Below, in pieces: positions 1,298 to 8,909 of a DNA stretch of 24,134 nt. Every line of letters starts with the position of its first letter. The first letter of the stretch is position 1. This DNA comes from a virus. The stretch is from the IMG/VR virus record IMGVR_UViG_3300044612_000951, positions 1-24,134 of that record. One strand, written 5' to 3'. Position numbers and translations under genes: made by a program. The notes under the pieces were generated by a model, which did not search any database, had not been told where the DNA came from, and was given only the letters and a program-made list of their open reading frames with translations.

Positions 1298-1745
1298 GGA
1301 TGTTGTAGTTATAGTGCCGGGGATAAAAGAGTCAGATGGTTATTATTACTGGAATAAGGGACAGGAGTTTAACCTAGGTCCGTATTTTAAGACAGCCGAG
1401 TTTGACTGTCAGTGTAAACATGATAGCTGTGTAGAACAAAAGATATCTATTGAGCTTGTAAAAAAGCTACAGGATGTTAGAGTTGAACTAGCCCGCCCAG
1501 TAAAGGTAACGTCTGGATTTCGTTGCAGTAAACACCAGGCTGATCTTAGAAGCTCTGGGGTAAATACTGTAGTAGCCAGGGTTAGTACTCACGAGCTAGG
1601 TAACGCAGCAGATATCCGTCCGGTGGATAGAAATATGACTGGGTTCTTAGAAATAGTAGAAAAGAGCTTTTTAAGCATCGGGTTAGCCAAAACGTTTTTA
1701 CACGTCGATTTACGAGAAGATAAGGAGCGCAGATGGAACTACTAA
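1197..1745 (+). CDS. M15-family peptidase, probable endolysin
   Basis: This is a D-Ala-D-Ala carboxypeptidase-like zinc peptidase that would cut peptide cross-links of murein. The core runs from about residue 59 (PYFKTAEFDC) to the end. SGFRCSKHQ at about residues 106-114 precedes the zinc-ligand motif H132-x6-D139 (STHELGNAADI), and the third ligand is H169 in FLHVDL. The total of 182 residues fits phage M15A endolysins. The start is uncertain. ATG 1197 has an excellent AGAGGA site six bases upstream but overlaps the previous gene by 101 bases; ATG 1227 and GTG 1314 are alternatives, and the conserved core needs none of the first 40 residues. It is adjacent to a two-helix holin candidate, separated only by the small ATPase gene. 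Confidence 0.85.
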   Translation: MNISNIVKLIMSLFTYHTGQLEKNSGKQPSKIVEDVVVIVPGIKESDGYYYWNKGQEFNLGPYFKTAEFDCQCKHDSCVEQKISIELVKKLQDVRVELARPVKVTSGFRCSKHQADLRSSGVNTVVARVSTHELGNAADIRPVDRNMTGFLEIVEKSFLSIGLAKTFLHVDLREDKERRWNY

Positions 1746-2230
1746 ATAAGCCAGGTCTTACTGTTTGGATTGGAGAAAGAAGACAGGGTAAAACTTATCA
1801 GCTATGTCGAAACGCAGTCCTTAATTGTATTAAAAATGATAGTAACTCTTTGCTTGTGTCTGAGAGCAACTTTTCTAGAGTAACTAGCTATTGTTTAGAG
1901 GGTTTTTTAAAAAACGAAAACATTGAATATAAACTTAATAAGACTGATAGATGTTACACCTTTAGTAATGGGTCGAAGCTCTACATTAGAACTCCTACTA
2001 GTCCGGAGTGGTTCAGGGGTACTACTTGGGGTTTTATTGGTATAGACGAGGCTAAAGACATTAAAGATTTGGATTACCTAGTAAAGTCAATTCTATATCC
2101 GACGATTGTAACTAAAAATGGAACTATAGTTTTAGCATCCCTTTTTGATCACTTTAAGCAGAGCAATTTTAATGGCTTTGTATTAGATGCTGCTGCTGGG
2201 AATAAACTTATAAATACTATTAATAACTAG
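1733..2230 (+). CDS. Stand-alone terminase-like ATPase domain (mini-TerL)
   Basis: This 165-residue P-loop protein has Walker A at G14-ERRQ-GKT21, Walker B FIGIDE at 101-106 and a coupling-type motif IVLAS at 132-136. The same order appears in the full TerL at 3101: Walker A, then F-x-NGS (77-81 here, 114-118 there), an RG pair (95-96 and 134-135), Walker B DEA, then K/T-IVLAS. The nuclease domain is absent: the protein stops about 30 residues after motif III. It overlaps the peptidase gene by 13 bases. It may be a paralogue that assists packaging, a decayed duplicate, or an unrelated-role ATPase. The fold assignment is fairly firm; the function is not known. Confidence 0.75.
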   Translation: MELLNKPGLTVWIGERRQGKTYQLCRNAVLNCIKNDSNSLLVSESNFSRVTSYCLEGFLKNENIEYKLNKTDRCYTFSNGSKLYIRTPTSPEWFRGTTWGFIGIDEAKDIKDLDYLVKSILYPTIVTKNGTIVLASLFDHFKQSNFNGFVLDAAAGNKLINTINN

Positions 2231-2302: not shown

Positions 2303-2646
2303 AGCCGGTCACGCAAAAACTTCTGTCAATTATTCAGTCTCTAACCTATGGAAAAGTCGTAAGATCAGCTCTATTCCTTTTGCTGATTATTTCCTGCGGT
2401 CTAGGTCTAAAACAAAATCCCATACATTCTGCTATTATATCATTGATTGCTTTTGTAGCTTTCGATGTTGTTTGTGCGTTTAAGCGTCCGAAATTTAAGG
2501 ACTTTAGTGAAGAGATATCTACTCTCCAGGCTAAATTAAAGGCATCTGAAGAAAAAACTACAAATCTAGAATCGCAATTTAAAGAGGTTAAATCTGACCT
2601 ATCTGTTGCAAAAATTAGTACCGTCATTGGACAAGCGAGGAGATAA
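2299..2646 (+). CDS. Two-helix membrane protein with coiled-coil tail, holin candidate
   Basis: This 115-residue protein has two hydrophobic segments (about 24-37 and 44-61) separated by a short polar turn. A basic stop (K62-R63) and a long charged helical, coiled-coil-like tail (about 70-105) follow. Two close membrane helices with a charged C-terminus fit class II-like phage holins, and an M15 endolysin gene lies just upstream. ATG 2299 is chosen because GGGGAA lies about nine bases upstream and ATGA coupling is possible; an in-frame ATG at 2266 would add 11 residues. The stop overlaps the next ATG (TAATG). A spanin or a membrane-bound assembly factor are alternatives. Confidence 0.6.
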   Translation: MKPVTQKLLSIIQSLTYGKVVRSALFLLLIISCGLGLKQNPIHSAIISLIAFVAFDVVCAFKRPKFKDFSEEISTLQAKLKASEEKTTNLESQFKEVKSDLSVAKISTVIGQARR

Positions 2647-3098
2647 TGAAAAACGATTCAATTGATAAACTAGCTGAAGAATATGCTAGTACGGATAACG
2701 ATCAGCAAGCTTATAATAAAGCTCTGAGTTCTACAATCATTTCCCAAACTAAGGAAATCAATAACTTAAAGCGTGAGACTGAAAAACTTGCCAAAGAAAA
2801 TGAACGGTTATTGATGGAGAATGCTCAGCTTAAAGCTCTGGCTCCACAGGAACAGGGACAGTTTGCTACGTCGGATGAGGAAACAATTTGCGTAGTCCAG
2901 TTAGCTATTTTAAAGAACACAGCTCTTACCCGCGAGCTTACTTTGGAAGAAACTAAAAAGACCGAGATATATGTAAAAACTCTGAAAGAAATCCGGGGTA
3001 AAAAAGTAATGGCAGTTGACGAGGAAGAAAAGGTTGAGAAGCTTAGTAATGAAGATTTACTGAAGCTCATGGAATCTGTAAATAAAGTTGGTAACTAA
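2646..3098 (+). CDS. Coiled-coil protein in the small-terminase position
   Basis: This 150-residue, highly charged protein has a coiled coil at about residues 33-65 (heptad leucines, NNLKRETEKLAKENERLL). A helical segment follows (about 80-118) containing ARELTLEE-like sequence (TRELTLEETKKTE) that recalls the oligomerisation region of some small terminase subunits. It starts at the TAATG overlap with the membrane protein and ends two bases before the terL start. Small terminases recognise the packaging site and hand DNA to TerL, and they usually sit directly before terL. No clear N-terminal helix-turn-helix is seen, so the call rests mainly on position and architecture. Confidence 0.6.
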   Translation: MKNDSIDKLAEEYASTDNDQQAYNKALSSTIISQTKEINNLKRETEKLAKENERLLMENAQLKALAPQEQGQFATSDEETICVVQLAILKNTALTRELTLEETKKTEIYVKTLKEIRGKKVMAVDEEEKVEKLSNEDLLKLMESVNKVGN

Positions 3099-3100
3099 TT

Positions 3101-4540
3101 GTGAGTATTAGTAAAAAAGCTGCCAAACACGAGTTGATTCGAAGGGGGATGCTTCAGTTTTTGATGCACCCCGGGCAATTAGAAATGTATAACATTTTTA
3201 AGAATGCTCCGGATAATTCTATTATGACTTGGCTTCTTGCGCGTCAGTCAGGTAAGTCATATGGTATGGCTATCATTGGAACCATCACCTGTATGGAAAA
3301 ACCTAATGTTATCGTCAAGTTATTGACGGACACTAAACTTCACTGTAAGACAATCTTCGAACCTATCTTTCGTCAAATATTCGACGAATTCCCTAATGAT
3401 TTAAAGCCCGAGTATATTCCATCTCAGTATGTGTATATATTTAAAAATGGCAGTCAGATTCAGTTGGCGGGTTCTGACGGTAACTCCGCAGAAAGATTAC
3501 GTGGTCAGAAGTCTGACTTGGTACTAGTTGACGAGGCTGGCTTCTGTAATAATCTAGAATATAACGTAATGTCTATTTTGCTACCGACAACTACACATAC
3601 CGGCGGTAAGATTGTTCTAGCATCTACTCCCCCAGAAGACCCAGCTCATGAGTTCTTACAGTTTATTGAGCGGGCTGAAAAAGACAACCTTCTTACAAAG
3701 AAAACTGTTTACGACAACCCACTACTAACATCCGGACAGATTGAAAATATTGTATCTAAGTTTAGCGGCGGAGCTAATAATTCTCAGTTTAGACGCGAGT
3801 ATCTATGTGAAATTGTTAAGGATGAGCAGATGTCTGTTCTTCCAGAAGTTGACGACGACTTATTAAGACAGATAGTTAAAGAGGTAGAACCTCCGGCTTT
3901 TTGTAACAGATACGTTGCGATGGATATTGGATTTAAAGATTTAACTGTAGTATTGTTTGGATACTATGATTTTCGTGAAGACATTATAGTTATCCAAGAT
4001 GAGATTGTCAAGAATGGTAAAGAAATTCACTTACCAAAGTTCACAAAAGAAATCCAGGACAAGGAAGCTGAACTCTGGACAAATCCTCTAACTAATGAAT
4101 TATTCAAGCCCGACAGTAGGCTTTCAGACATTAACCCCTTTGTAATACAGGAAATCACAATTGCATCCAATAACCAGATCAGCTTTGGTATGGCTAGCAA
4201 AGATAATAAACTGGCTAATCTCAATAAGCTACGAGTTATGCTTGCTGCTAAGAAGATTATTATAAACCCTAAGTGCACTACTCTAGCCCGACATTTAAAA
4301 AACTGTCGCTGGAAAGATAAGACTTCTAAAGAAGAATTCGCTCGTTCCCCTGACGAAGGTCACTACGATGCGGTCGATGCTTTGTTGTATTTCACCCGTG
4401 CGGTAAACTATAAAAAGAACCCGTATCCGGTAGGTTATGGACATGATCTCAGGAACATGCATATTGAAAATAGAAACAAATTCCGTGGAGCCCAGCACCA
4501 AATGGTGTACGAGGCTATCTTTGGAATAAAGAAAAAATAA
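3101..4540 (+). CDS. terL: Terminase large subunit (packaging ATPase and nuclease)
   Basis: The protein has 479 residues, the usual length. The N-terminal ATPase has Walker A-type LARQSGKS (46-53), F-KNGS (114-118), RG (134-135), Walker B LVLVDEAG (140-147) and motif III KIVLAST (170-176). The C-terminal RNase H-fold nuclease begins with YVAMDIG (D275) and ends with the late acidic pair in DEGHYDAVDALLY (about residue 420-430). It pumps DNA into the prohead and cuts the concatemer. The start is GTG at 3101, two bases after the upstream stop, with only a weak ribosome site, suggesting coupled translation. A promoter-like word follows immediately at 4541. Confidence 0.96.
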   Translation: MSISKKAAKHELIRRGMLQFLMHPGQLEMYNIFKNAPDNSIMTWLLARQSGKSYGMAIIGTITCMEKPNVIVKLLTDTKLHCKTIFEPIFRQIFDEFPNDLKPEYIPSQYVYIFKNGSQIQLAGSDGNSAERLRGQKSDLVLVDEAGFCNNLEYNVMSILLPTTTHTGGKIVLASTPPEDPAHEFLQFIERAEKDNLLTKKTVYDNPLLTSGQIENIVSKFSGGANNSQFRREYLCEIVKDEQMSVLPEVDDDLLRQIVKEVEPPAFCNRYVAMDIGFKDLTVVLFGYYDFREDIIVIQDEIVKNGKEIHLPKFTKEIQDKEAELWTNPLTNELFKPDSRLSDINPFVIQEITIASNNQISFGMASKDNKLANLNKLRVMLAAKKIIINPKCTTLARHLKNCRWKDKTSKEEFARSPDEGHYDAVDALLYFTRAVNYKKNPYPVGYGHDLRNMHIENRNKFRGAQHQMVYEAIFGIKKK

Positions 4541-4556
4541 TTAACAACTTATATTA
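4541..4556 (+). promoter_or_regulatory. TTAACAACT promoter-like element, copy 3
   Basis: TTAACAACT begins on the base directly after the terL stop codon. It is followed by TATATTATAGAAACG; the last ten bases repeat those in copy 1. Transcription from here would cover the serine protease, the portal and the long run of virion genes downstream. The purine at the usual distance is A4556, with a second candidate start at G4559. Confidence 0.65.
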
Positions 4557-4579
4557 TAGAAACGCAAAAAAGGACGCAA

Positions 4580-5317
4580 ATGATTTTTAAGATTCTCAGA
4601 AAAAGTGCAGCAATCCTTTCTATAGGTGCCGCTGTTTTATTCCTTAGTATTACAGGTCCAAGTCTACATAATAGTTATTTACGTTCAAGTGTAGGTGATT
4701 CTGTGGTTAAGGTTTTAATTCCTGGTCGCGGGGGTGGAACTGGATTTTCGGTAGAAGCTGCTTCTGGTGAAAAGTATATTGTAACCAATGCTCACGTCTG
4801 TGCTCCGTCTAGAGATGGGCTAGTCAAAATTACAAACGGGGATAAACTATCTACGTTTAAAGAAATCATATACATTGATGACGAGCATGACATCTGTCTA
4901 GTAGAAGGTGATTGGAGGCTTCCAGCTCTATCTCTTTCTGAAACCCCAGAAAAGGGGGACTTTATGTACATCGTAGGTCATCCAGGCTTGAGGGCTCTAA
5001 CGGTTTCTCAAGGTGAGTTTATTGGCAAGTCTAGTGTCAAAATGTTAAAGGATGTAGAAGATCGAGAAAGCTGTAAGGGCGAAGTCTACGAACTCAATAT
5101 ATTCGAACAGTTAATGTATCAGAGAGAGTTTGCCTGTATTGTAAAATATAAAACATATTCAACTTCAGCCGTAGCTTATGGTGGAAACTCTGGTAGCCCG
5201 GTTGTTGACTATCGTGGACGAGTTATGGGAATCCTATTTGCCGGGAATCGCGAACAAGAAAGAGACAACCATGTTGTTCCTCTTCCTGAGTTAAAAAGAG
5301 TTCTTAAGAATTTCTAA
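4580..5317 (+). CDS. Signal-anchored trypsin-like serine protease
   Basis: This 245-residue chymotrypsin-fold protease has a complete triad: H72 in TNAHVC, D104 in EHDICLV and S204 in GGNSGSPV. Residues 1-26 are a basic start (KILRK) plus a hydrophobic stretch (about 10-26), so it is probably exported or inner-membrane anchored with a periplasmic catalytic domain. Four cysteines (74, 106, 165, 186) could form disulfides there. Length and layout match HtrA-type protease domains without a PDZ domain. It lies alone between terL and portal, where many phages carry a head-maturation protease, but the signal argues against an intracapsid role. It is the first gene after copy 3 of the promoter word. 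Substrate unknown. Confidence 0.88.
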   Translation: MIFKILRKSAAILSIGAAVLFLSITGPSLHNSYLRSSVGDSVVKVLIPGRGGGTGFSVEAASGEKYIVTNAHVCAPSRDGLVKITNGDKLSTFKEIIYIDDEHDICLVEGDWRLPALSLSETPEKGDFMYIVGHPGLRALTVSQGEFIGKSSVKMLKDVEDRESCKGEVYELNIFEQLMYQREFACIVKYKTYSTSAVAYGGNSGSPVVDYRGRVMGILFAGNREQERDNHVVPLPELKRVLKNF

Positions 5318-5326
5318 GGGATTACA

Positions 5327-7366
5327 ATGAGCGATAATAAAACATATTTTGCTGCCCAAGAGCCAGAAAAAACCGCCTCGAATCTCTTAAAGAAGTCGGA
5401 AACATTTTTTAACGTATTGAATTCCAATTCATATCTTAGTAAAATCAAAGATATGTATAGATTTTATTACGGACATTTTAATGGTGACGCTAACGATTCT
5501 CACGAGATTTCATTTACTGGAGAACAGGGCGAACTTGTAAAGCTCCCGGTAAACCATTTTAGAAATCTAGCCCGCCATATGTATAATATGATTACGGCTA
5601 ACCGCCCGACTTTAGAAGCTCGGGCTATTAACTCGGATTATAAATCCCTATCTCAAACATATCTAGCTAACGGTATTCTCGATTACTATATGCGAGAAAA
5701 GGGATTGGAAGATAAACTGTACGATGCGGTAGAAATGTCTGTCGTGTTAGGTTCGGCTTACTTAAAGATGGAATGGAATGCCACTTCTGGTGAAACATAT
5801 GATGTTGACCCTGAATCTGGCGAACCTGTAAATGAAGGTGAAATTGAATTCAGTCTACTAAGTCCTATGGATGTTGTAGTAGATGGAACAAAAGAAAATT
5901 GGTTATCTCACGAGTGGGTTTTAACTCGTTCATGGATAAATAGATATAATTTAGTTGCAAAGTATCCTGACATGGAAGAAAAGATTATGTCGGTCGAGAC
6001 TAAAAACGCAGCTAGTCAGTATCGCGTTTCTGTATTTAGTAACGATGATACAGATGACATTCCCGTATATGAGTTCTTCCACAAAAAGACAGAGGCAATG
6101 CCTGAAGGTAGATACCTTTTATTCTTGTCGGACGACTGTATTCTACTTGATCTAGATATGCCTTATCGCAGTATTCCAGTATTTAATCTTAGTCCGTCTA
6201 TGATTATGGGAACTCCGTATGGTTACTCTGATATGTTCGATGTCTTTCCAATTCAGGAAGCATTAAACTCTATGTACTCTGCTGTAATGACAAACCAAAA
6301 CGCATTTAATGTACAGAATTTATTTGTACAGAAAGGTGCTGATCTAAACGTTTCCGAGCTAGCTGGTGGAATGACTGTGGTTGAAGGTAACTTTAAACCA
6401 GAGCCATTACAACTTACTGCTACAGCTCCTGAAACATTTAACTTCTTGAATCTATTAATTGGTGCATCTGAAACGTTGACGGGCGTAAGCTCGGTAACAC
6501 GAGGTCAGCCAGAAGCTTCTTTGCGTTCGGCTTCTGCGCTGGCTCTCGTCCAATCTATGTCACTACAGTTTGTGTCAGGCTTTCAAAAGAACTATGTTAA
6601 GTTCTTGGAAAGAGTTGGAACCAGTTTAATTGAAATCCTAAAAGATTTTGCACAGACACCCAAGCTTATTGCTCTCGTCGGCAAAAACAAACAACCATAT
6701 CTCAAAGAATTTACTGGTGATATGATTAAAGATGTTAAACGAGTTGTAGTAGATGTAGGTAACCCTTTAGCCAGAACTACTGCTGGTCGCGTTCAAATGG
6801 CTGAGCAATTAGCACAGATGAATCTTTTAAAGAACCCACAACAATACTTCATGGTTATTGAAACTGGTCGTATTGATACAATGATTGAAGGTGATATTTC
6901 TGATCTAATGTTGATTAAGCGTGAAAACGAATGGTTGATGGAAGGTCGCGATGTATTTGCTGCGCTTCTAGACAAACACAGTGTTCACATTATGGAACAC
7001 CAGTCAGTAATTAATGACCCAGAGCTTAGACAGAATCCGGAATTGTTAGCTAAAGTTCAAGCACATATTCAAGAACACATTGATATTCTTAGAACTGCTG
7101 ACCCTGATCTATTGATGTTAATTGGTCAACAGCCGTTGCAGTCTCCACAAGCTCCACAACAACCTCCAATGCCAGCTCCTCCGGGAGGTCAAGGCGGTGA
7201 AGGTGGAGAGGGCGGACCTGCTCCAGCCCCGGCTCCTGGTCCAGGTGGAAGTCCTGCGGATATGATGAGTTCACAAGAAGGTGGAGTTCAAGCTCAACCA
7301 CCTAGAGAAGCAACTGTAGATGCTGGATTACTACCTAATCCCAGTATTGACCCTCGGGCAAGGTAA
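5327..7366 (+). CDS. Portal protein
   Basis: This 679-residue protein has the size and composition of large portal proteins of short-tailed phages. It follows terL and the protease. The N-terminal half has the wing/stem pattern, including VNHFRNLARHMYNMITANRP near residues 85-105 and a mixed alpha/beta region with SPMDVVVDGT. A helical stem and crown follow. The last 75 or so residues are low-complexity Pro/Gly/Gln-rich sequence that is probably disordered. A dodecamer would form the DNA channel at the capsid vertex and dock TerL and tail proteins. The ATG follows AGGGATTACA. The stop forms TAATG with a tiny downstream frame. Confidence 0.9.
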   Translation: MSDNKTYFAAQEPEKTASNLLKKSETFFNVLNSNSYLSKIKDMYRFYYGHFNGDANDSHEISFTGEQGELVKLPVNHFRNLARHMYNMITANRPTLEARAINSDYKSLSQTYLANGILDYYMREKGLEDKLYDAVEMSVVLGSAYLKMEWNATSGETYDVDPESGEPVNEGEIEFSLLSPMDVVVDGTKENWLSHEWVLTRSWINRYNLVAKYPDMEEKIMSVETKNAASQYRVSVFSNDDTDDIPVYEFFHKKTEAMPEGRYLLFLSDDCILLDLDMPYRSIPVFNLSPSMIMGTPYGYSDMFDVFPIQEALNSMYSAVMTNQNAFNVQNLFVQKGADLNVSELAGGMTVVEGNFKPEPLQLTATAPETFNFLNLLIGASETLTGVSSVTRGQPEASLRSASALALVQSMSLQFVSGFQKNYVKFLERVGTSLIEILKDFAQTPKLIALVGKNKQPYLKEFTGDMIKDVKRVVVDVGNPLARTTAGRVQMAEQLAQMNLLKNPQQYFMVIETGRIDTMIEGDISDLMLIKRENEWLMEGRDVFAALLDKHSVHIMEHQSVINDPELRQNPELLAKVQAHIQEHIDILRTADPDLLMLIGQQPLQSPQAPQQPPMPAPPGGQGGEGGEGGPAPAPAPGPGGSPADMMSSQEGGVQAQPPREATVDAGLLPNPSIDPRAR

Positions 7367-7416
7367 TGAATGATATGTCAAGCTTTAGTTTTAACTCTAT
7401 GTATTGGAAATGTTAG
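7366..7416 (+). CDS. Possible 16-residue linking peptide between portal and transglycosylase
   Basis: The portal stop overlaps an ATG as TAATG at 7364-7368. The resulting frame encodes MNDMSSFSFNSMYWKC and stops at 7414-7416, one base before the ATG of the transglycosylase at 7418. That arrangement would keep ribosomes moving across the gap. The peptide matches nothing known and may be only a coupling device or chance. Confidence 0.25.
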   Translation: MNDMSSFSFNSMYWKC

Positions 7417-7417
7417 T

Positions 7418-8008
7418 ATGTTAGATAAATTAAAAAAAATGTTGTCAGCTAAAGAACGCGACAACTACGTAGAAAAAACAGCAAACGATGTTTATCGAGG
7501 AATTGCTGATAAAACTGAATTGACTAAAGAGCAAGTCGCTAAAATTGGTGGAGTTGAGTCCCAACACGGCAAATATACTAAAAATATGGGTGGCAGCTCA
7601 GCTACTGGTATAATGCAAATTATGCCTAAACTTGCAGAAACTCTCCGTCCAGGTTCATCTAAGAATCTGAGCGATATGAATGTTCAAGAAGAACTAGCTT
7701 CTGACTTTATTAACATGAATACTCCAACAATAAAAGAGTTAAGCAAGAGTCCTAGTTCATTAAACCAGTATATCATGTATAATCTTGGTCAGGGAACTGG
7801 TAAAAGATTTTTAAAAGCTGGTGATAATGAAGATATTTCTAAAATACTTCCAGCTAAAGTAATAAAAGCTAATCCTAAATTATATAAATACAAAACTGTT
7901 GGAGAAGCTAAGAAAGCTATGCAAGGTTTTCTAGATTCCCGTGGGGCTGAAACTGAGTTTTATCCAAACGAGCAAGATTTTGCTAACCTATTCAAAGAGG
8001 AAGAATAA
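7418..8008 (+). CDS. Lytic transglycosylase (SLT-like), virion-associated
   Basis: This 196-residue protein has the soluble lytic transglycosylase core. The catalytic glutamate is E47 in GGVESQHG, followed by the ATGIMQIMP motif at 62-70 (family GLMQ motif). A later YNLGQGTGKRFL stretch corresponds to the family's conserved Tyr-rich part. It would cleave the beta-1,4 bond of murein glycan to form anhydro-muropeptides, probably as an ejected protein that opens the wall during DNA entry. ATG 7418 is chosen, with GGAAA upstream. An upstream in-frame ATG at 7370 has AAGG six bases away and would add a hydrophobic 16-residue extension. The stop overlaps the next start (TAATG). Confidence 0.82.
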   Translation: MLDKLKKMLSAKERDNYVEKTANDVYRGIADKTELTKEQVAKIGGVESQHGKYTKNMGGSSATGIMQIMPKLAETLRPGSSKNLSDMNVQEELASDFINMNTPTIKELSKSPSSLNQYIMYNLGQGTGKRFLKAGDNEDISKILPAKVIKANPKLYKYKTVGEAKKAMQGFLDSRGAETEFYPNEQDFANLFKEEE

Positions 8009-8310
8009 TGTCTGGTAAATTTAAAAAACTAAAAGAAACAATGTCTTGTAATAAACCAAGACCTTCTAACCGTCCGGGTAAAAAACGTATGGTAAAAGGT
8101 TGTCAAGACGGTAAAGAAAAGCTAATACATTACGGAGCTTCCGATTACGGCTCAAATTATTCTGACAGTGCGAGAAAGAATTTTCGTGCCAGACATAGTT
8201 GCGATACAGCAAAGGATAAAACCACAGCTCGTTACTGGGCTTGTCGTAATTTGTGGAGCAAAAATAGTACAAAATATTCTACTAAAGGTAAGAAGGGTGG
8301 GAACAAGTAA
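8008..8310 (+). CDS. Small basic four-cysteine phage protein
   Basis: This 100-residue, very basic protein has C14, C32, C65 and C79. The block from GCQDGKEKLIHYGA through the RKNFRARH and TARYWACRNLW sequences recurs in small proteins of many tailed phages, usually within structural gene clusters. The cysteine and histidine spacing could bind zinc. The lysine-rich ends suggest DNA contact or packing inside the capsid. It is coupled on both sides by TAATG overlaps, so its amount should track its neighbours. No biochemical function is known to me. Confidence 0.75.
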   Translation: MSGKFKKLKETMSCNKPRPSNRPGKKRMVKGCQDGKEKLIHYGASDYGSNYSDSARKNFRARHSCDTAKDKTTARYWACRNLWSKNSTKYSTKGKKGGNK

Positions 8311-8909
8311 TGTCTGATCGTAGAATTTTAGAAGAAGAAACAAATAAAATTAATCAGTTATATCAAGAATATGACTTACAGATGCGCAAAGCTGGAGCTT
8401 CTATGGAGCAAAGACAGCAGATGCGTGACATGATGAATGCTAAAAAAGCTGCTCTTGTTGATCAGTACGGTGATCATCTTCAGAATATGAACGCTGGTAA
8501 GGGTGTTTTAGTTCCAGGTGGCACAGTATCCAAGGCAGCTAAAGATGCCGGTGAAGGAATTGATGTTGCCGATATTAGAAAAAAAGGTATTATCAAGGGT
8601 GTAGGAAAGAAAATGCTTGGAGCTTTACCTTTAGTTGGTATGGGTATGGCAATTGCAGATTCGCCAGCAGCCTCAGCGTCTGAACTAATTCAAGACCCAA
8701 AAATTCAACGAGCAGCATTTTCAGAACTAGCCGGACCGGTTGGTGACGCTATTGATATTGCTGGAGATGTAGCTGAGTATGGTTTGGATGAATATCGGGA
8801 TTACAAAGATAAATCTGATATGGAAAAGTCGGAAAGTCAGGCTAAAAAGGATTATGCTAAGTCCCCAGCTAGACTAGATAAGTTAAAAACTTTAATGGGT
8901 AGGAAATAG
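8310..8909 (+). CDS. Helical virion protein candidate with apolar centre
   Basis: This 199-residue protein is largely helical. The N-terminus is a charged helix (1-55). The centre is Gly/Ala/Met-rich (about 100-125, GALPLVGMGMAIADSPAAS) and could insert into or cross a membrane. The C-terminus is Lys/Asp-rich. This charged-apolar-charged layout, directly after a transglycosylase, is reminiscent of internal proteins ejected with DNA by short-tailed phages. That role is inference only. The ATG overlaps the preceding stop (TAATG). Confidence 0.65.
   Translation: MSDRRILEEETNKINQLYQEYDLQMRKAGASMEQRQQMRDMMNAKKAALVDQYGDHLQNMNAGKGVLVPGGTVSKAAKDAGEGIDVADIRKKGIIKGVGKKMLGALPLVGMGMAIADSPAASASELIQDPKIQRAAFSELAGPVGDAIDIAGDVAEYGLDEYRDYKDKSDMEKSESQAKKDYAKSPARLDKLKTLMGRK

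Follow-up and report, generated by a model that had tools for sequence, protein, structure and literature searches.

A TerL-type ATPase core encoded as a separate small gene upstream of a complete large terminase gene in a virus record

Phages are usually assumed to have a single gene for the large terminase (TerL), which serves as a marker. The virus record analyzed here over its whole length (the window; 24,134 bp) comes from an uncultured phage and appears to be a fragment. It encodes a complete TerL and, upstream of it, a much smaller protein with terminase-like ATPase motifs. What is this second protein, where did it come from, and what might it do beside an intact packaging enzyme?

Identity and fold of the small protein

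An earlier note had reported a 165-residue open reading frame (ORF) at positions 1733 to 2230, located 870 bases upstream of a 479-residue TerL, and both were confirmed. The ORF (+ strand; 165 codons) starts with an ATG preceded by a good ribosome-binding sequence (AAGGAG), and no alternative ATG, GTG, or TTG occurs in frame upstream of this codon. The protein matched Pfam Terminase_6N (23.4 bits; curated cut-off, 22) and, weakly, the PHROG 2 terminase. A profile built from the window's TerL family, with the small protein left out, gave it a score of 65.2 bits, compared with 3.8 bits for the best of 2,000 shuffles, which excludes a chance match. Profile-profile alignment with the TerL family (hhalign) gave a probability of 98.5% (E = 1.7e-15; residues 9 to 159).

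AlphaFold2, run on an alignment of 52 TerL ATPase-domain rows, yielded a model with a pLDDT of 90.9 and a pTM of 0.88; this model depends on the TerL alignment, given that the sequence by itself produced a poor one (pLDDT, 41). The top solved structures retrieved by Foldseek were the TerLs of T4 (gp17; E = 5e-8; TM, 0.79), D6E, P74-26, and HK97 (E values for these TerL structures, 5e-8 to 1e-6), followed by phi29 gp16; the matches also included 8dgc, the Avs3-PhiV-1 terminase structure. In the viral library, the named matches among those listed were mostly terminases. The evidence for fold and family is thus sequence homology, together with a model that agrees with it. The two checks proposed by the earlier note, profile-profile comparison and structure prediction, therefore place the protein in the terminase ATPase family. 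A fold outside that family, which the note had named as a possible refutation, was not obtained, and loss of Walker residues in relatives was not seen, since none of them has the gene. We conclude that the protein is almost certainly a TerL-type ATPase, consisting of a stand-alone core with the ASCE subdomain only (the terms ASCE and lid follow PMC5727402).

Conserved motifs and missing parts

Residue conservation was counted over 128 distinct complete TerLs. The small ATPase contains a Walker A motif, GERRQGKT (positions 1772 to 1795), with the conserved P-loop arginine R16; R16 and G19 were conserved in 126 of the 128 TerLs (the other 2 having gaps) and K20 in 120. These residues and T21 are followed by the NGS motif (residues 79 to 81; positions 1967 to 1975; N79 in 122/128), the RG motif (R95-G96; positions 2015 to 2020; R95 in 127/128), and the Walker B/catalytic glutamate motif DEA (residues 105 to 107; positions 2045 to 2053; D105 and E106 in 127/128). 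The claim that all ATPase signatures are kept held for every catalytic residue and for the IVLAS stretch, but not for the residues that follow this stretch. In the motif III region (LASLF; residues 134 to 138; positions 2132 to 2146), S136 is retained, while the T-P of TerL (T in 122 and P in 117 of the 128 TerLs) is replaced by L-F, giving S-L-F; S-T-P is common rather than strictly defining, and a few complete TerLs vary there as well. Moreover, the phenylalanine following DEA is replaced by aspartate, a histidine present in 120 of the 128 TerLs is replaced by serine, and 13 of 32 family-conserved columns are altered in total.

The motifs occur in the same order as in the window's own TerL, to which the small ATPase is approximately 26% identical. 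Walker A (R16-G19-K20-T21) corresponds to R48-G51-K52 of TerL, NGS (N79-G80-S81) to N116-G117-S118, RG (R95-G96) to R134-G135, Walker B (D105-E106) to D144-E145, and the motif III serine S136 to S175. The nearly equal spacing described earlier was also recovered, with two identical intervals (RG to DE, 10 residues; DE to S, 31 residues) and two that are shorter in the small protein (Walker A to NGS, by 5 residues; NGS to RG, by 2 residues). Colinearity with TerL extends to the last residue and includes the family-specific DLDY and FNGF-type stretches.

Both ends of TerL are missing. The small ATPase starts 13 residues before Walker A, without the N-terminal segment of approximately 35 residues that carries the Q motif, and it ends 29 residues past S136, so that only the first residues of the lid are present. 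No nuclease domain was matched in the protein by Pfam, hhalign, or the TerL alignment, as the earlier note had stated, and the linker and C-terminal portal-binding tail are absent as well. The protein is thus not a second motor and cannot package DNA by itself; it appears to descend from a member of the same broad TerL family through removal of both ends. R95 lies just ahead of the Walker B strand, which makes it a candidate trans-acting arginine of the P74-26 R139 type (position class as in PMC5727402).

Gene neighborhood and insertion site

The small ATPase lies behind a gene for an endolysin-type M15_3 peptidase (positions 1197 to 1745, + strand; Pfam Peptidase_M15_3; PHROG endolysin), and its start codon falls within the last 13 bases of that gene. 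The segment from 1746 to 2232 (ca. 488 bp) was absent from all relatives in which the site was readable. In a blastn comparison with L003, the nearest relative of the window (TerL, 83% identical), homology ended at 1744 and restarted at 2233, with 114 unrelated bases between these points in L003. A 34-aa membrane ORF fills the site in L003, and a 30-aa membrane ORF fills it in L009. In five other relatives (L004, L005, L007, L008, and L010), the site is empty and the M15 stop codon abuts TTAACAACT. Because the site is either empty or occupied by a 30- to 34-aa membrane ORF in these relatives, it is a small variable cargo slot between the M15 gene and the TTAACAACT element. The ATG used by the small ATPase recurs within the last M15 codons of L007, L008, L069, and L072, where it opens ORFs of 39 to 43 codons that start with ME[LI]LTT.

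The TTAACAACT element just behind the insert (positions 2234 to 2242, + strand) is preceded by an imperfect copy, TTAATAACT, which forms the 3' end of the small gene (positions 2220 to 2228). Across the window, TTAACAACT occurs seven times on the coding strand (starting at 196, 2234, 4541, 9314, 14770, 15797, and 17612) and not at all on the other strand, compared with an expectation of 0.28 per strand. The copies are mostly intergenic, and several are followed within approximately 10 bases by ATAGAAAC and a gene start. Its presence at corresponding gene junctions is conserved throughout the phage family (L003, L004, L007, L008, L010, L011, L069, L070, and L072), so that it is a candidate family-specific promoter or processing element. 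If TTAACAACT marks a promoter, the small ATPase would share its expression with the M15 gene and not with TerL.

Downstream of the element, a membrane/coiled-coil protein (positions 2266 to 2646, + strand) is the next gene in all close relatives. It is followed by a coiled-coil protein directly 5' of TerL (positions 2646 to 3098, + strand), which is conserved in the family and is, by position only, the candidate small terminase. The complete TerL (positions 3101 to 4540, + strand; GTG start at 3101) contains both ATPase and nuclease domains (Terminase_6N, 43.4 bits; PHROG 2, E = 3e-34; TIGR01547 over residues 48 to 438), and the genes 3' of it encode a trypsin-like protease, a portal protein, and a lytic transglycosylase. 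The small ATPase therefore sits behind a lysis-type gene and outside the unit formed by the membrane, coiled-coil, and TerL genes.

Distribution among related and cultured phages

Exact peptide patterns detected no close relative of the small ATPase in IMG/VR or in GTDB, sampled at one genome for each species. No relative of the window carries an orthologue, and the gene is known from this single record. We searched 134 related virus records whole; nearly all had their own TerL, and a second ATPase copy was found only in L109, which leaves the window and L109 as the only double carriers among the 135 records. Among cultured phages, the window TerL matched 370 records and the L029 TerL matched 926, at one place each; this search could miss a copy as diverged as that of the window but would not miss one like that of L109. 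Short TerL ORFs in L044, L048, L065, L068, L088, and L090 were rejected as second copies because they reach contig ends, and L167 and L191 were rejected because their TerLs are each broken by one TGA.

The search of related phages that the earlier note had proposed thus revealed no orthologue of the small gene, but it did reveal an ATPase-only copy beside TerL in L109 (IMGVR_UViG_3300033153_002496; 12.8 kb), a distant relative of the window. The gene order in L109 is a membrane/coiled-coil gene, a coiled-coil gene (34% identical to that at 2646 to 3098 in the window; E = 4e-7), a 233-aa ATPase-only TerL copy (L109 positions 2304 to 3005), a complete 485-aa TerL (L109 positions 3009 to 4466), and a portal of the window's type. 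The copy shares 50% identity with the complete TerL of L109, and its end coincides exactly with the start of the linker to the nuclease. All catalytic residues are kept, while the T-P of motif III is lost (S-S-L). In the tree, the copy fell into a clade of 16 TerL-type rows that was well supported; its branch measured 1.16, compared with 0.23 for the TerL of L109, yet its reading frame remains open over 233 codons. Like the small ATPase, it is a nuclease-less TerL-type ATPase beside a complete TerL in the same wider phage family. Unlike the small ATPase, it possesses the N-terminal Q-motif segment and the lid, and it lies between the coiled-coil gene and TerL, whereas the window copy lies behind the M15 gene. 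Common descent of the two copies was neither supported nor rejected (approximately unbiased [AU] test, P = 0.30).

Origin of the small ATPase

In the tree, the window copy had a branch length of 2.5 to 5 and no supported place. The view that the two copies in the window are too diverged for a recent duplication agrees with their 26% identity and with the absence of the small gene from L003, and a recent tandem duplication was rejected on these grounds; nevertheless, descent from within the window's own close TerL clade was not rejected (AU test, P = 0.41). A split TerL, i.e., two halves of one enzyme, was discarded because the TerL at 3101 to 4540 is intact and no separate TerL nuclease was seen in the window. 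Neutral drift of a TerL to 28% identity would be expected to introduce approximately 5.6 stops into 165 codons, and only 0.7% of simulated runs remained stop-free. These results argue against a drifting pseudogene and indicate that the gene, if a relic, is a recent one; the simulation does not count against a recently captured fragment. Profile-guided scans of IMG/VR and a search of 50,697 phage records yielded no source TerL closer than approximately 32% identity.

Possible role and alternative explanations

We tentatively favor an accessory TerL-derived ATPase that joins or perturbs a packaging ring, with a mechanism that we can only infer. The phage would have acquired, at a variable site, an accessory gene for a separate TerL ATPase core. 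The protein would bind and probably hydrolyze ATP, and it may contact neighboring TerL-type subunits, given that the active site and the RG arginine are kept, but it would lack the parts that translocate and cleave DNA, namely, the lid and nuclease. Such a nontranslocating partner could enter or cap a packaging ring, either tuning the phage's own motor or blocking that of another element that competes with it inside the cell. The change in motif III is consistent with an ATPase uncoupled from DNA movement. The isolated ATPase domain of the D6E TerL (residues 1 to 234) forms pentamers and hydrolyzes ATP approximately 60 times faster than the full-length protein (PMC5727402), and by analogy, natural ATPase-only copies could form or join rings without moving DNA; that construct is the size of the L109 copy. 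Family, fold, motifs, colinearity with TerL, insertion between conserved flanks, and the L109 case speak for such a partner. Against it stand the single record, with no orthologue from which selection could be measured; the loss of most of the lid, which the D6E construct retains, so that neither stability nor ATP turnover is assured; the location behind the M15 gene and upstream of a recurrent intergenic element, where the gene may not be coexpressed with TerL; and the dependence of the structural model on the TerL alignment.

The single record and the lack of a start codon within the insert place another explanation close behind, namely, that an internal piece of another phage's TerL was captured by illegitimate recombination behind the M15 gene, in frame with a preexisting ATG, and has no function. 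The motifs would then be kept only because the source was a working TerL. The insert does begin at the M15 stop, the ATG belongs to M15 codons and opens short ORFs in four relatives, and the inteins that invade TerL in this family (see below) make breakage and recombination there plausible. Yet a source TerL closer than that noted above was not found, the insert is in frame at both ends, the rarity of stop-free drift would require the capture to be recent, and L109 demonstrates that ATPase-only copies can stay open while diverging. It is improbable that the protein is a P-loop NTPase that has left packaging for another phage process (e.g., lysis timing or DNA metabolism). The place after a lysis-type gene and before an element possibly starting the next transcription unit would suit such a change, as would the altered family-conserved columns, but every one of the closest profile and fold matches is a packaging ATPase, and the RG arginine typical of ring-forming TerLs is retained. 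We consider it slightly less probable still that the protein is a decoy presenting a TerL ATPase surface to Avs-type STAND sensors and thereby sparing the real TerL. The proteins sensed by Avs1 to Avs4 are the large terminase, the portal, or a further phage protein (PMC12931631), the Avs3-bound terminase is among the structural matches, and sporadic presence at an accessory site together with a very long branch would befit an arms-race gene; TerL surfaces could, however, equally trigger the sensor, a protein without nuclease and lid may not bind it, and there was no match to PADLOC or to known inhibitors.

A broader proposal, which we regard as rather unlikely, is that ATPase-only TerL copies form a recurrent accessory class within this uncultured phage family that has kept hydrolysis, lost coupling and DNA handling, and regulates the phage's own ring or sabotages that of a rival.

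Comparison with known systems

The arrangement had been put forward as undescribed. We found no description of a second, split, or truncated terminase or of an ATPase-only second TerL in the open-access literature (subscription literature was outside the scope of the search), and to this extent the claim stands; the L109 copy and an annotated trio in Microbacterium phage Cece qualify it. In Cece, gp59 is a complete TerL, and gp63 and gp64 are annotated as nuclease and ATPase domains, respectively. As in the window, a complete TerL and a separate TerL ATPase gene occur in the packaging cluster, which makes this trio the nearest annotated precedent in an isolated phage. However, gp64 comprises a whole 253-aa ATPase domain with an annotated nuclease partner gene, and according to the annotation only, the pair may be a split second terminase. 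The solved TerL structures share their fold and motif set with the small ATPase, but they are domains of full TerL proteins, whereas the small ATPase is a natural gene without most of the lid. The phi29 gp16-type ATPase (5hd9; Foldseek E = 5e-5) is likewise a short packaging ATPase with a similar core; it comes from another branch and works as the only motor in its phage, while the window has a complete TerL besides.

A second, ATPase-only TerL copy can mislead annotation and marker-gene counts. If such copies join TerL rings, they would offer naturally occurring dominant partners with which to ask how many ring subunits need to be active and coupled, and they might also serve phages as a weapon or shield during packaging.

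Other features of the window and its relatives

The trypsin-like protease gene between TerL and the portal (positions 4580 to 5317) is kept in close relatives and possibly encodes a head-maturation protease, albeit one with an N-terminal hydrophobic stretch. A gene for an HNH/endonuclease VII-like protein (positions 426 to 1025) represents a second insertion, 0.7 kb upstream of the first and absent at that place in relatives. The two small genes on either side of it abut or overlap each other in close relatives, and homologues of the inserted gene sit elsewhere in L069 and L014.

The broken TerL of L167 (L167 positions 888 to 2384) is interrupted by one TGA, in frame, where DEAGF has its glycine; because no TGA occurs in the portal and other genes, this looks like a nonsense mutation or a read error rather than recoding. 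TerLs of 844 to 884 codons with Hint and LAGLIDADG domains were found in L036 (positions 3579 to 6128), L150 (positions 5956 to 8607), and L152 (positions 5944 to 8475), and the three inteins occupy three different places in the TerL of the window's phage family.

By its TerL (positions 3101 to 4540), the nearest cultured record to the window is a Silvanigrella aquatica phage (CP017838.1; 26% identity), and one GTDB match is a Bdellovibrionales MAG. These matches hint weakly that the window's phage family infects Bdellovibrionota-like hosts.
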